Shown: piece by piece, positions 35,247-43,025 of the stretch | How positions within the stretch are numbered: position 1 is the stretch's first letter | How the letters are laid out: the number at the start of each line of letters is the position of its first letter | DNA from: Desulfobacterales bacterium | GTDB lineage: Bacteria; Desulfobacterota; UBA8473 | Length of the DNA: 64,000 nt | Reading direction: 5' to 3' | NCBI GenBank assembly: GCA_016209225.1 | Contig: JACQWO010000008.1 | Coordinates: 1 to 64,000 of the forward strand | Made by a program: the position numbers and the translations under genes | Notes under the pieces: model-generated | What the model was told of the DNA's origin: nothing | Seen by the model: only the letters and a program-made list of their open reading frames with translations | Databases searched by the model: none

Positions 35247-35476
35247 AATCGATCTCCTCTTGCAGTTGTATGATTTGAGGTTAGCTCACCTCGGTTAAAC
35301 CAGACCCCCTTGCAAACGGGACATTCATAAATAAAAAATACCTTAAAGGAGGGGGGGAAGTCAAGGAATAACGTTTCTATTCGTGACTATTATATCATGT
35401 CCGGTTTAATAAATATCAAATGGCATGGTAGATAGTAAAATCAAATTGACACCATCAGGCTGTTGATATAATATGA

Positions 35477-36567: not shown

Positions 36568-37686
36568 ATGCGTTACTTTATTATCCCCATCTTTGTACCC
36601 CATCTGGGATGTCCACATCAGTGCATCTTTTGTAATCAAAGGAGCATTAGTGGGGTTTCTAATCTTGCAACAACTCCAAACCTCTTGGAGAAGACCGTAA
36701 AACTCTATCTTAAGACATGGGGAAAGAAGGAGGGCTTTAAAACCCAGATCGCTTTTTATGGGGGGAGTTTTACAGGGCTAGGTTTAAAGATTCAGGAATC
36801 TTTACTCTCCAAAGCCCATGACTTTATCGACAGGGGAGAAGTCAGCTCGATCAGGATTTCAACCCGCCCGGACTATATTGATTCGGAGACTCTATGTTAC
36901 TTGAAAGATTATGGGGTTGATACTATTGAATTGGGGGTCCAGTCCATGGCGGATAGGGTATTGATGCTTTCCAGGAGAGGGCATACCTCATCGGATGTTG
37001 AGATGGCTGTAGAGACCATTAAAGGGTATGATTTAGAGCTGGGGCTTCAGATTATGCCGGGTTTGCCAGGAGATACCCCTGACCTAATCATGAACACAGT
37101 AGATAGGATTATAAAAATGAGGCCGGATTTTGTGCGTATTTATCCTACCCTGGTTATCAAAGATACTCCCTTAGAGGAGCTTTATTTAAGAGGGAGCTTT
37201 TTGCCAATGACATTGGATAAAGCTGTAAATATCTGCAAAAAGGCCCTTTTAAGATTTAAAATTGCTGATATTCCGGTGGTAAGACTTGGGTTGCAATCAA
37301 CCCCTGAATTAGAAAGACAGGGGACCATTATTGCAGGTCCCTATCATCCCTCCTTTCGCCATCTGGTAGAGTCTGCTATTTTTTTCGAGATGGGGAAGAG
37401 ATTGATTGAAAAAAGCCCTCTCTATGATGAAAGATTGACTTTTAGAGTAACGCCGGAAGATTATTCCTACTTCTGTGGCCAAAAAAACGGGAATATTGCT
37501 AAACTGAAGGAAAGATATAACGTAGGACATATACAGGTTATCCGAGAGATGGGTGTCAAAAAGGGCACCCTCGAATTGTTAGCCGGTTCTTCGATATTCT
37601 GTATTGAACGTGAAGAACTCAACCGTTCACCGTTCACCGTTCACCGTTTACCATTGAACCCTGAACCGTTGAACCCTGAACAGTGA
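36568..37686 (+). CDS. radical SAM protein of the HemN/Elp3-like group
   Basis: 372 residues. HLGCPHQCIFCNQRSISG supplies the CX3CX2C 4Fe-4S/SAM site near residue 15. IAFYGGSFTG is the GGE-like SAM motif, followed by IRISTRPDYID, TIELGVQSM and LQIMPGLPGDT. These are shared with archaeal/clostridial Elp3-related and HemN-like proteins; substrate unknown, a tRNA modification being one option. It lies between rnc and era, a position where such genes recur. The final 20 or so codons (NRSPFTVHRLPLN and on) translate a heptamer repeat array and do not belong to the fold, so the original stop has been lost or moved. Confidence 0.8.
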   Translation: MRYFIIPIFVPHLGCPHQCIFCNQRSISGVSNLATTPNLLEKTVKLYLKTWGKKEGFKTQIAFYGGSFTGLGLKIQESLLSKAHDFIDRGEVSSIRISTRPDYIDSETLCYLKDYGVDTIELGVQSMADRVLMLSRRGHTSSDVEMAVETIKGYDLELGLQIMPGLPGDTPDLIMNTVDRIIKMRPDFVRIYPTLVIKDTPLEELYLRGSFLPMTLDKAVNICKKALLRFKIADIPVVRLGLQSTPELERQGTIIAGPYHPSFRHLVESAIFFEMGKRLIEKSPLYDERLTFRVTPEDYSYFCGQKNGNIAKLKERYNVGHIQVIREMGVKKGTLELLAGSSIFCIEREELNRSPFTVHRLPLNPEPLNPEQ

Positions 37687-37710
37687 ACCCTGAACCGAGA
37701 AGCGTGAACC
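37621..37710. repeat. heptamer array ACCGTTC/GAACCCT across the radical SAM stop
   Basis: ACCGTTC repeated three times, then GAACCCT, GAACCGTT, GAACCCT, GAACAGT, GAACCCT units in about 7-bp steps, ending in GTGAACC directly before the era ATG. It supplies the C-terminal peptide and stop of the upstream gene and the whole spacer in front of era. Confidence 0.9.
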
Positions 37711-38598
37711 ATGGAACTTAAATCCGGTTTTATATCCATAATTGGCAATACTAATGTAGGGAAGTCTACTCTGCTAAACTATGTTCTTGGGGAGAAGATT
37801 GCGATTGTCTCTGATAAACCCCAGACTACTAGAAACAGGATACTGGGGATTAAAAACAACCCTATTGCCCAAATGATTTTTCTTGATACCCCGGGAATAC
37901 ACAAGGCAAAACCTCAACTAAACAGATATATGGTGAAGGAAGCGATCAAGACTTACAGTGATGTGGATATAATCCTGCTTTTGGTCCAGGCTAATACAGG
38001 TATTGCTGATGGAGACCGTTTTGTTATTGAGACCCTTGAAAAGGTTAAGATACCAATTATCCTGGTGATAAATAAGATCGATTTAATAAAAAAAGAATCC
38101 CTTTTGCCTTTGATAGATGAATTCAGCAAGTTATACGATTTTAAAAGTATTATCCCCATATCAGCTTTATCAGGGCAGGGAGTTGATCTGTTAATAAAGG
38201 CAATAGAGGGTTTACTCCCCCTCGGACCGAAGTATTTTCCTGAAGAAATGATTACGGATTTACCAGAGCGTTTTATAGTGGCAGAGATAATAAGGGAAAA
38301 GATCTTCCATCTTACCTCTCAGGAGATACCGTATTCAGTGGCTGTTGTAATAAACGATTTTAAAGAGAGGGAGGGTGTAAATACCATTTTTATAAGGGCT
38401 GCAATCCATGTAGAAAAACCCTCTCAAAAGGGGATTCTAATAGGCAAAAAAGGGAGTATGTTGAAGAGAATCGGTCAGCTGGCAAGAATTGACATTGAAA
38501 ATCTCTTAGATGCTAAGGTCTACCTCGAATTATTGGTGAGGGTGGAGAAAGACTGGAGCAAGGATATCAAAGCGTTGAGAAAGCTAGGTTATAGATAA
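37711..38598 (+). CDS. era: GTPase Era
   Basis: 295 residues. G1 GNTNVGKSTLLN (residues 11-22), G3 DTPGIHKAK, G4 NKID, G5 ISALSG. The C-terminal KH domain has IFIRAAIHVEKPSQKGILIGKKGSMLKRIG and the family ending VYLELLVRVEKDWSKD. It binds 16S rRNA and assists 30S assembly. The start codon abuts the heptamer array and has no visible ribosome site (GTGAACC ATGG); the family N-terminus supports this ATG. Der follows after 3 nt. Confidence 0.95.
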   Translation: MELKSGFISIIGNTNVGKSTLLNYVLGEKIAIVSDKPQTTRNRILGIKNNPIAQMIFLDTPGIHKAKPQLNRYMVKEAIKTYSDVDIILLLVQANTGIADGDRFVIETLEKVKIPIILVINKIDLIKKESLLPLIDEFSKLYDFKSIIPISALSGQGVDLLIKAIEGLLPLGPKYFPEEMITDLPERFIVAEIIREKIFHLTSQEIPYSVAVVINDFKEREGVNTIFIRAAIHVEKPSQKGILIGKKGSMLKRIGQLARIDIENLLDAKVYLELLVRVEKDWSKDIKALRKLGYR

Positions 38599-39920: not shown

Positions 39921-40038
39921 CCATCGGCTGAAGCCGATGGCTTGAGGGTTCAAGGATTCGAGGGGTCAAGTGAAAACAGATGTCCATTCTTGTCCTTGAA
40001 CCCTTGAATCCTGGACCCCTTGAATCCTTGCTGCCAGT
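39921..40038. repeat. CCATCGGCT hairpin plus inverted octamer array
   Basis: CCATCGGCT-GA-AGCCGATGG at 39921-39940, the same cap as at 20301-20322, then GAGGGTTCAAGGATTCGAGG on the left and CTTGAACCCTTGAATCCTGG with CCCCTTGAATCCTT on the right. It fills the der-Nudix gap. Confidence 0.8.
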
Positions 40039-40499: not shown

Positions 40500-40684
40500 A
40501 ACCCACTATGCAGTCCGGCCCTTCCGGCAATCGCTATTGCCTCCTGATATTCCTGTGAGCTAATTCTCCGCTTTAACTCTGGAAACTCATCTGCTCTATA
40601 CATAGGACGATATTGGGACATGATATTAAGATAGGAGTCCTTTGATATATCCGTGGCGATAAACTCGCCTCTGATACGTTACGA
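40496..40684 (-). pseudogene. C-terminal remnant of a PflA/PflX-like radical SAM protein
   Basis: Read on the minus strand, about 60 codons give EFIATDISKDSYLNIMSQYR, then a segment containing YRADEFPEL, and RRISSQEYQEAIAIAGRAGL before a stop at 40496. This resembles the C-terminal end of pyruvate-formate-lyase-activating-enzyme-like (PflX) proteins, in which V-N-V-M-x-Q-YRP is followed by Y/F-P-E-L/I and R-R. The radical SAM core is absent and a stop (TAA) closes the frame upstream at about 40685-40687. A 5' piece with its own ATG (about 40759, preceded by GAAGGAGGAAG) runs only 18 codons. The gene is dead; its origin is deduced from this motif only. Confidence 0.6.
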
Positions 40685-40908
40685 AGTTTTTCAGCAAGTT
40701 GTGGCAATGTCAGTCTCTTTTGTGCTATCTATCTTTGCGGCGGTCATATCTTCCTCCTTCGTTAATGTTTTTTGGCAAAAACACTTTATCGGAAGAGAAG
40801 ACTGACTGCCACTTTTTTAACCCGCAAACTGTGCGGGAAGATATTAACTTTTACACAAAAAAATTGTTCACTCAGTAAAGTGGAGCAGGATCACTTGATA
40901 GATAATAA

Positions 40909-40940
40909 CAAAAACCCCCGGCTTTTACCGAGGGTTTTTG
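40909..40940 (-). terminator. hairpin terminator downstream of 40976-41359
   Basis: CAAAAACCC (40909-40917) pairs with GGGTTTTTG (40932-40940) around a GC-rich loop. In either direction the hairpin ends in a run of T. It lies 36 nt after the stop of the minus-strand gene. Confidence 0.75.
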
Positions 40941-40975
40941 TGAATAGATGGAAGATCTCCTCTTTTCTAGTAAAA

Positions 40976-41359
40976 TTATAGTCCGAGATCTAGACCCAAT
41001 TGTTTTTGCATTTCTTTAGTCCATGTAACTACCCAACCACCTTTTTTCGAAACTTCAAACTTTTCAGCCGTAATGGCTTTAAACTTTGCGCTTATATTTC
41101 CTGTAACTCGCACCTTCGTATTTATATATCTCGATAAAACTGCACGGTCCAAATTAGAAACAAAGTAATAGCCATCTTTAGCAGTTAGAACCACAAAGAC
41201 TTGTTCAAGGGCAACCAGCGGGTCTTCTTGCCCAATAGGACAGATCTTACCTTGTGTAACACAATGATAACCCTGGACTGTACCTTCTATTTGCGCCGCA
41301 AATGCCAAAACAGGTAGCAAGACAAGCGCAAATGCAATAAGTATTAATTTTTTCTTCAT
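40976..41359 (-). CDS. small exported protein, OB-fold-like (hypothetical)
   Basis: 127 residues with a clear signal peptide (KKKLILIAFALVLLPVLAFAA, cleavage near 22). The mature part has two Cys close together (GYHCVTQGKICPIGQ), which could form a disulfide or bind a ligand. Beta-rich segments VFVVLTAKDGYYFVSNL and INTKVRVTGNISAKFKAITA look like a small OB-type barrel. No family name can be given. Downstream is a clean terminator; upstream lies a good promoter at 41624-41652 with a leader of about 260 nt. It is next to two exported selenoproteins, so a periplasmic redox or metal role is possible but unproven. Confidence 0.75.
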   Translation of the reverse strand: MKKKLILIAFALVLLPVLAFAAQIEGTVQGYHCVTQGKICPIGQEDPLVALEQVFVVLTAKDGYYFVSNLDRAVLSRYINTKVRVTGNISAKFKAITAEKFEVSKKGGWVVTWTKEMQKQLGLDLGL

Positions 41360-41461
41360 TTTTACCTCCTTTTAATTGACAAACTTTTTCTCAAATCTCA
41401 TCTCAGTTGATATAAAGTGTCCTCAGTACGATCCTTTAAATTGATCTAAAAAATATATATA

Positions 41462-41566
41462 TCAGTCACCTCCTTTCTTATCCTTCACAACATTGGCATC
41501 TTCTCCCAAACTTGTGAAATTATGGAGCATGAAGCACTTTCTTGTGGTAGAACCCCCAAATCGCAT
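41462..41566 (-). CDS. possible leader peptide / small ORF
   Basis: 34 codons within the 5' leader of the 40976-41359 gene: starts MRFGGSTTRKCFMLHNFTSL and ends in a Lys/Gly/Asp-rich tail. It has no strong ribosome site. Its composition is not obviously random, and an AGGAGGT overlaps its stop. It could be a leader ORF or a fragment of a lost gene. Confidence 0.22.
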   Translation of the reverse strand: MRFGGSTTRKCFMLHNFTSLGEDANVVKDKKGGD

Positions 41567-41623
41567 GGCAGTTCTTGATCCCACAAATCAATCTCTTTAA
41601 CCGTCATTCAACTATGGAAAGCA

Positions 41624-41652
41624 ATAGTATCATCTCATATTTATATTGTCAA
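41624..41652 (-). promoter_or_regulatory. sigma70 promoter upstream of the small exported protein
   Basis: On the minus strand a consensus TTGACA (41652-41647), a 17-nt spacer and TACTAT (41629-41624). It points toward the 40976-41359 gene and lies just after the end of the Sec-thioredoxin gene. Confidence 0.7.
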
Positions 41653-41681
41653 CAATTTTTGACAAAAACCCCATTAAATAA

Positions 41682-42083
41682 CTACTGCCTTTTCTTTTCC
41701 CATCTTTTTATATTTCCATATATAAATCTCTCAAGAACTTGCTGTTCTGCCCCTCCTATAAGACGGTCTATCTCTTTATTGTCCTTATCAACAATGATAA
41801 ATGTTGGAGTATAAGCGATTCCGTATTTTTCCACCTTCTCTTTTCCCTTGTCAGTTTTAATATCTAGAATCTGGAATTCTCGAAGCTGAGATGTATATTT
41901 CTTTTTAACCCTATCAACGATAGGTTCCATCTTCTGGCAAACATGTCAGTAAATAGAATGAAATTGTATAAACTTCAATTCGCTTTTACTCTCTTCTTCC
42001 TTAGCCCACCCTAACGGTAAGAACAGAATAAAAAGAAGGACTGCAGATAAAATTACCTTTTTAAAATATTCTAACCGTCTCAT
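41682..42083 (-). CDS. exported selenoprotein thioredoxin (Sec-x-x-Cys), UGA at 41946-41948
   Basis: 133 residues if the in-frame UGA at codon 46 is read as selenocysteine. Residues 1-28 (RRLEYFKKVILSAVLLFILF...GWA) form a signal peptide or anchor. KFIQFHSIY-Sec-HVCQKMEPIVDRV is the thioredoxin active-site helix with UxxC in place of CxxC. YGIAYTPTFIIVDKDNKEIDR supplies the cis-Pro loop, then IGGAEQQVLERFI. Frame, spacing and fold continue perfectly across the UGA, so this is not a frameshifted pseudogene. The ATG lies 1 nt after the stop of the peroxiredoxin gene. A hairpin 3' of the UGA fits a bacterial SECIS. It probably reduces the neighbouring peroxiredoxin or periplasmic disulfides. Confidence 0.85.
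41910..41924 (-). promoter_or_regulatory. candidate bacterial SECIS hairpin of the Sec-thioredoxin
   Basis: On the mRNA, CCTATC-GTT-GATAGG forms a perfect 6-bp stem with a GUU loop, extendable by AA/UU pairs around one bulge. The loop starts 27 nt after the UGA, within the 16-37 nt window known for bacterial SECIS elements, and has G-U at the loop start as SelB prefers. Confidence 0.65.
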
Positions 42084-42084
42084 T

Positions 42085-42669
42085 CTACTCACTTTGTATC
42101 TCCTTAAGTTTTTTGATTACACTCTCAATATCTCTAGGCTCTGATATGCTTGAAGACTGCTTAAAACGAACTATACCTTTCTTATCTATGACAAAACTCA
42201 CTCTATTGGCTACTTTTTCTGTGAAATTAAAAACCCCGTAACGCTTTGATACTTCTCTGCCCCAATCGGACAATAAATCAAAAGGCAACCTCAATTCCTC
42301 ACGGAACCTTTTATGAGAAGCAAAACTATCAACACTGATACCGAAAATCTCGGCATCGAGCTCTCCCAATTTCTTATAATTATCTCGGTATGAGGAGAGC
42401 TCCCCTGCTCAGACTGGCGTAAAATCAAGGGGATAAAAGACCAAAACAACATTTTTCTCTCCTTTAAAGTCACCAAGAGAAACATTCAGCTGATCCTGAT
42501 TCTTTAAGGTAAAGCCAGGCGGCTCCTCACCTATCTCAGGCTGACGATTCTCAACATTCTCAGCAGCTAAGACTGTTCCGTTTTTTGTTATCACTGATCC
42601 TGTATAGCAGTACCATATTAGGGCAAGGAATAGAATCATGCCAATCCGCAAACCTATACTTTTTGTCAT
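42085..42669 (-). CDS. exported selenoprotein peroxiredoxin (PrxU-like), UGA at 42409-42411
   Basis: 194 residues when the in-frame UGA is read as selenocysteine. A hydrophobic N-terminus (LRIGMILFLALIWYCYTG, then VLAAE) indicates export. The AhpC/TSA/BCP core runs PPGFTLKNQDQLNVSLGDF, VVLVFYPLDFTPV-Sec-AGELSSY, FGISVDSFASHKRF, LPFDLLSDWGREVSKRYGV and NRVSFVIDKKGIVRFK. The Sec replaces the peroxidatic Cys of FTPVC; the partner Thr (T-P-V-U) and Arg (NRVSF) are present. No resolving Cys follows, so it is a 1-Sec type that needs an outside reductant, most simply the Sec-thioredoxin encoded next. ATG 42669 has GGGAGG 8 nt upstream; the longer frame to 42747 lacks this. Confidence 0.85.
42358..42402 (-). 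promoter_or_regulatory. candidate SECIS stem of the Sec-peroxiredoxin
   Basis: Downstream of the UGA the mRNA can pair GAGCTCTCC (42402-42394) with GGAGAGCTC (42366-42358): a 9-bp perfect stem with a 27-nt loop. A smaller alternative (AGGGG-AGCU-CUCCU) forms closer to the UGA than is usual. Which of these SelB would use is unclear. Confidence 0.4.
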
Positions 42670-42718
42670 TATATAACCTCCCTGGTAAAAAAATGATTTA
42701 AACTTAAAATATAACATA

Positions 42719-42747
42719 TCAATAAGAAAAAAAAAGTTAGATGTCAA
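42719..42747 (-). promoter_or_regulatory. promoter of the selenoprotein pair
   Basis: On the minus strand consensus TTGACA (42747-42742), 17-nt spacer with a run of nine T, then TATTGA (42724-42719), about 45 nt upstream of the peroxiredoxin ATG. Good -35, weak -10. Confidence 0.5.
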
Positions 42748-43025
42748 GTAAAATCCTGTGCAAGTTTTATTCCCTCTATATCCAGAAGTCTTTTAAAGAA
42801 GAGGGTTGGACCAAAAAACTAGACACCTCTTCTTGCAAAACTCTAAAACCCCCTCCTTGAGGATGTCGGGTATCTTCGGAGAGCCTGCCTCGCCCTTTAA
42901 TGATAATATTTTTAATATGGACTCTTAATTTATTATATGATAAAGTACCTCATAAATATCAAAAAATGAAAGGATTGTTTGCCTAAAGGAAATCTTTTGT
43001 TTTTTAGGATGAACTTTAGTATGTC

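Follow-up and report, generated by a model that had tools for sequence, protein, structure and literature searches.

Two adjacent minus-strand genes from a Desulfobacterales bacterium very likely encode genuine selenoproteins, a peroxiredoxin and a thioredoxin, each with an in-frame TGA in place of the redox-active cysteine (Cys) and each with a predicted export signal. They lie in a window of 64,000 nucleotides, the whole stretch of DNA analysed here. Sec-peroxiredoxins (PF00578, TxxU) and Sec-thioredoxins are listed selenoprotein families (PMC13188914). New is the arrangement of these two known families, and its outstanding feature is the adjoining Sec-thioredoxin rather than the export of a Sec-peroxiredoxin. 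No report of such a tandem was found in the open-access papers searched. With moderate confidence, we favor an overall account in which both proteins are decoded, co-translated, exported and recharged through a CcdA-type carrier. The locus comprises the following features (window coordinates):

42085 to 42669, minus strand: Sec-peroxiredoxin gene, ATG at 42669 to TAG at 42087-42085, 194 aa, AhpE/PrxQ-like
42677 to 42682, minus strand: Shine-Dalgarno sequence GGGAGG of the peroxiredoxin, 7 nt ahead of ATG 42669
42565 to 42669, minus strand: peroxiredoxin N-terminus (residues 1-35), predicted to act as signal peptide or anchor and perhaps cleaved at VLA/AE (hydropathy, by eye)
42409 to 42411, minus strand: in-frame TGA, Sec87 at the peroxidatic position (FTPV-U-AGEL), from ORF reading and homologue alignment
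42358 to 42402, minus strand: stem-loop past the peroxiredoxin UGA (GAGCUCUCC / GGAGAGCUC), a possible but atypical SECIS, −17.3 kcal/mol, z −2.1
42100 to 42105, minus strand: Shine-Dalgarno sequence AAGGAG of the thioredoxin, inside the end of the peroxiredoxin gene, 7 nt ahead of GTG 42092
41682 to 42092, minus strand: Sec-thioredoxin gene, GTG at 42092 (or ATG at 42083) to TAG, 136 aa
42003 to 42092, minus strand: predicted N-terminal signal peptide of the thioredoxin, residues ~1-30, possible cleavage at GWA/K (hydropathy, by eye)
41946 to 41948, minus strand: in-frame TGA, Sec49, first position of UxxC (IY-U-HVC), from ORF reading and homologue alignment
41910 to 41924, minus strand: SECIS-like hairpin CCUAUC-GUU-GAUAGG, loop 27 nt past the thioredoxin UGA, −4.8 kcal/mol
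40667 to 43019, no strand: segment without counterpart beside either flank in the same-genus genome G004, holding both genes and that of a 127-aa exported protein

An earlier sequence-only reading of this DNA had described a single UGA at the redox-active position of each gene, embedded in conserved family sequence, and this description was borne out. The TGAs at codon 87 of 194 and codon 49 of 136 are the sole in-frame stops within the two ORFs, and neither gene contains a frameshift or any further lesion pointing to decay. With the TGA read through, the Pfam AhpC-TSA profile matches residues 46-169 of the peroxiredoxin across the TGA with 126.3 bits (profile positions 1-123 of 124). The TGA, in the context FTPV-U-AGELSSYRDN, falls on the alignment column in which the peroxidatic Cys/Sec is invariant among homologues, and the TxxU motif of Sec-peroxiredoxins is present as T84-P-V-U87. 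The nearest solved structures are SsoBcp1 (3drn) and Mtb AhpE (1xvw), and the NCBIfam PrxU profile reaches 88.9 bits against a cut-off of 270 bits. The N-terminus is hydrophobic (mean hydropathy 2.24 over 15 residues), and the protein may either be cleaved near VLA/AE or remain membrane-anchored. The lack of a resolving Cys, also claimed before, is correct for the mature protein, which has no Cys, the single one (C21) being located within the signal or anchor.

The thioredoxin matches Pfam Thioredoxin (PF00085) with 47.7 bits over residues 36-124, likewise across the TGA, and PF13098 with 36 bits. Its TGA (IY-U-HVC-QKMEP) aligns with the first Cys of the CxxC motif of homologues. The resulting UxxC motif, U49-H-V-C52, contains the only Cys of the protein, C52. 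Its N-terminus is also hydrophobic, with a mean hydropathy of 3.01 across 15 residues, and cleavage would likely fall at GWA/K, judged by eye, so that signal-type stretches are seen on both products, in line with the export signals proposed previously. A twin-arginine motif is not evident in either N-terminus. When predicted without an alignment, the thioredoxin gave a poor structure (pLDDT 52, pTM 0.30), which was set aside.

The thioredoxin start is most likely GTG 42092, because its spacing of 7 nt from AAGGAG fits better than the 16 nt to ATG 42083. Thus, the two genes would overlap by 8 nt; the gap of 1 nt reported earlier holds only for the ATG start. Nor did the promoter scan favor the shared promoter postulated before, as it returned 8 promoter-like sites versus 6.4 expected and none above chance. 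It is the gene overlap that suggests cotranscription. Downstream of the thioredoxin, the window encodes a predicted exported protein of 127 aa with two Cys (40976-41359, minus strand), which has no match in Pfam or NCBIfam and is preceded by a good promoter-like site of its own at 41652-41624. An Rfam search yielded nothing relevant near the locus. Conceptual translation of short intergenic repeats at ~37640-37720 and 39940-40020 of the window gives runs like LNPEPLNPE and SRVQGFKD.

Peroxiredoxins with one active-site Cys or Sec form a sulfenic or selenenic acid and require an external thiol, often that of a thioredoxin. Extracytoplasmic thioredoxins are in turn recharged by CcdA/DsbD. Two homologues of these membrane proteins are encoded in the genome, one of them adjoining an exported Cys-thioredoxin on contig C11. 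In the mechanism that we propose, the UGA of both genes would be decoded in vivo by tRNA-Sec and SelB on a single message, and the overlap of stop and start would couple their translation. The N-terminal signals would then direct both proteins out of the cytoplasm, where they would fold and where the selenolate of U87 would act as a peroxidase, reducing a peroxide. Since the peroxiredoxin lacks a resolving Cys, its selenenic acid would need a thioredoxin-fold reductant, a role that the co-encoded UHVC thioredoxin could most simply fill; the Se-S bond of this thioredoxin would finally be reduced through a CcdA-type membrane carrier. Given the chemistry of one-Sec peroxiredoxins and the presence of CcdA/DsbD homologues, the co-encoded thioredoxin is a natural but unproven partner, and a dedicated pair is plausible. 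The stronger version, a dedicated extracytoplasmic selenol relay that is co-translated, co-exported and CcdA-recharged and moves electrons from selenium to selenium outside the cytoplasm, is tentative and in our judgment falls somewhat short of an even chance.

The comparative data bear directly on this relay. Sec-peroxiredoxins are common in the phylum, as judged from samples of 148 and 395 genomes. Among 62 other distinct Sec-peroxiredoxin sequences, whose flanks we inspected mostly over 1.5-3 kb and in some cases up to a contig end, none had an adjoining Sec-thioredoxin; in one, a Cys-thioredoxin lies at a distance of more than 2 kb. The conserved tandem for which the sequence-only reading had suggested a test was therefore not found, and because the arrangement occurs in no other genome examined, a functional link between the two proteins receives no comparative support. 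The missing resolving Cys speaks for the proposal that the neighboring thioredoxin is the natural reductant, the unconserved adjacency against it. Both proteins may instead be real exported selenoproteins that form no dedicated relay: another extracytoplasmic thioredoxin would reduce the peroxiredoxin, the UxxC thioredoxin would serve other disulfides, and adjacency would reflect joint acquisition or chance. This explanation draws on the solitary occurrence of the tandem, exported Sec-peroxiredoxins included, and on the Cys-thioredoxin next to CcdA on C11, a real alternative reductant. However, the shared strand and the 8-nt overlap suggest coupled expression, and a peroxiredoxin without a resolving Cys needs an external reductant. 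We regard it as a serious possibility, albeit one that we do not favor.

The earlier view that export is unusual was too strong. Twelve other Sec-peroxiredoxins of the phylum (L120, L126, L135, L141, L145, L156, L037, L169, L175, L177, L183 and L139) possess an export-type hydrophobic N-terminal extension, which makes export nothing exceptional for a Sec-peroxiredoxin. Most of the twelve form one well-supported tree group, and their neighbors include no thioredoxins. The tree does not support membership of the present peroxiredoxin in this clade; it forms a lone long branch outside, the placement of which is unsure as for long branches. Hence, more than one origin of exported Sec-peroxiredoxins is probable. 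Among named genomes, a scan with the peroxiredoxin returned only three Cys-peroxiredoxins from Acidobacteriota (38-43% identity). In the phylum sample, no close Sec-containing relative of the thioredoxin was found, and most TGAs in thioredoxin matches of relatives proved to be ordinary terminal stops read through and were discarded. Relatives have exported Cys-peroxiredoxins of the WTPVCSDQWPGYN type (L162, L163, L165, L166 and L168), which are often adjacent to another ORF of thioredoxin fold bearing a CPHC- or CxxC-type motif. In Cys form, they set a precedent for pairing a peroxiredoxin with a thioredoxin-fold protein.

Within the genus, the peroxiredoxin is present in no other genome. The flanks of the locus are split between two contigs in G004, and neither has a counterpart of segment 40667-43019 beside it. 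The GC content of this segment is somewhat low (36.5% vs 40.8%). Acquisition or rearrangement of the segment in this lineage is likely, and loss in others is possible. Near the orthologous acyl-CoA dehydrogenase gene of G004, the gene of a corrinoid protein with a NVWCAAGKGTFGT motif precedes that of a small ferredoxin (G004:C11, L205:3060-4837), and the two resemble the mercury-methylation genes hgcA and hgcB.

Recoding signals were assessed with a strict hairpin rule known from the bSECIS literature, namely an apical loop of 3-14 nt located 16-37 nt past the UGA, a G in the first two loop bases and at least 4 pairs. With hairpins of −4.8 kcal/mol or lower counted, this rule picked out 31 of 43 Sec-peroxiredoxin sites versus 38 of 200 random TGAs. 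The thioredoxin hairpin just complies, and the peroxiredoxin gene has a strong stem of 8-10 bp past the UGA, yet fails in loop and distance. Taken together, a marginal hairpin and an atypical stem make the SECIS evidence neutral to weakly positive. A reassigned code was ruled out, as TGA is the true stop of 13 of the 48 ORFs of at least 200 aa in the window.

A search for selA, selB, selC and selD had been recommended, and three of the four were recovered from the assembly (95 contigs, 98.5% complete): tRNA-Sec, the product of selC (75.9 bits), a full-length selA (633 bits) and selD (391 bits), whose codon 18 is likewise an in-frame TGA, so that it requires Sec itself. In contrast, neither a profile search nor a query with SelB from the same genus detected selB in the assembly. 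Two candidates were rejected: a selB-like match on contig C10 represents the start of EF-Tu, and the top match on contig C14 is CysN-like. Full selB genes exist in G004 and in other members of the family. The selB of G004 and an mltD-like gene ~370 bp away are divergently oriented. The orthologous mltD of the present genome (79% identity) is situated ~490 bp from the end of its contig, C58. Where G004 has selB, this contig end (G000:C58, L154:1950-2085) carries the sequence TGTCCGGTTT... with the ORF MRRTEMLQEIREMRFEEVYFG, which looks like the beginning of an insertion sequence. A 10-mer of this IS-like sequence recurs between genes at position 35398 of the window. G004 also contains an ORF reading GGU-AGPALG around an in-frame TGA (G004:C11, L205:6262-6639), like a HesB-like selenoprotein (UxGP), and thus seems to use Sec as well.

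Absence of selB had been named in advance as grounds to abandon the selenoprotein assignment, and formally it is absent from the assembly; the contig, however, breaks at the very spot where G004 keeps the gene. Because C58 ends in an IS-like repeat, selB is probably hidden in an assembly gap, and a contig broken on a repeat, with selB within the gap, is the simplest reading and likely, not proven. Loss of selB through IS insertion is possible, the Sec-dependent selD arguing against it. If selB were lost, the UGAs would go undecoded and both genes would be dead or give truncated products, which would agree with the failed searches and the IS-like end at the syntenic position. We nevertheless consider this improbable, given that selA, tRNA-Sec and selD are all intact, that neither gene has acquired a second lesion and that the assembly is fragmented and broken on a repeat at that spot. 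Least credible of all is that the TGAs are random nonsense mutations or sequencing errors: although the locus is known from one assembly and no second genome with it was found, two independent hits on the active-site codons of adjacent genes have a chance of ~1/194 x 1/136, i.e. ~4e-5, given one random stop per ORF and before requiring both stops to be TGA, and Sec is the common state at this peroxiredoxin site in the phylum (63 of 106 rows, the present one included).

Several known systems resemble parts of the tandem. The Sec-peroxiredoxin family, including PrxU of Eubacterium acidaminophilum, shares the AhpC-TSA domain and Sec at the peroxidatic TPVU position (PMC13188914). The present peroxiredoxin differs in staying far under the PrxU cut-off, in its AhpE/PrxQ-like character, its export-type N-terminus and its Sec-thioredoxin neighbor. 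Exported Sec-peroxiredoxins of the phylum (e.g. L135, L126, L175 and L183) have in common with it an FTPxU-type site and a hydrophobic N-terminal signal, but mostly constitute a separate tree group with non-thioredoxin neighbors. Sec-thioredoxin (PF00085, UxxC) and the Sec thiol:disulfide interchange protein (PF13098, UxxC) share the thioredoxin fold with Sec first in the motif; the present thioredoxin is distinguished by UHVC and a predicted export signal. Similar in layout are the Sao and Tso operons, in which two Sec redox genes, one of them a peroxiredoxin, lie side by side (PMC2398784, PMC13188914). Here, in contrast, the partner is a thioredoxin, which could plausibly act as direct reductant, and export signals are predicted on both products.

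In summary, comparison across the phylum shows that exported Sec-peroxiredoxins recur, probably with more than one origin. If the proposed account is true, the tandem would assign a defined electron donor to an exported Sec peroxidase. It would also offer a compact two-gene system in which to ask what makes selenium worthwhile beyond the cytoplasm and by what means reactive selenols withstand export.
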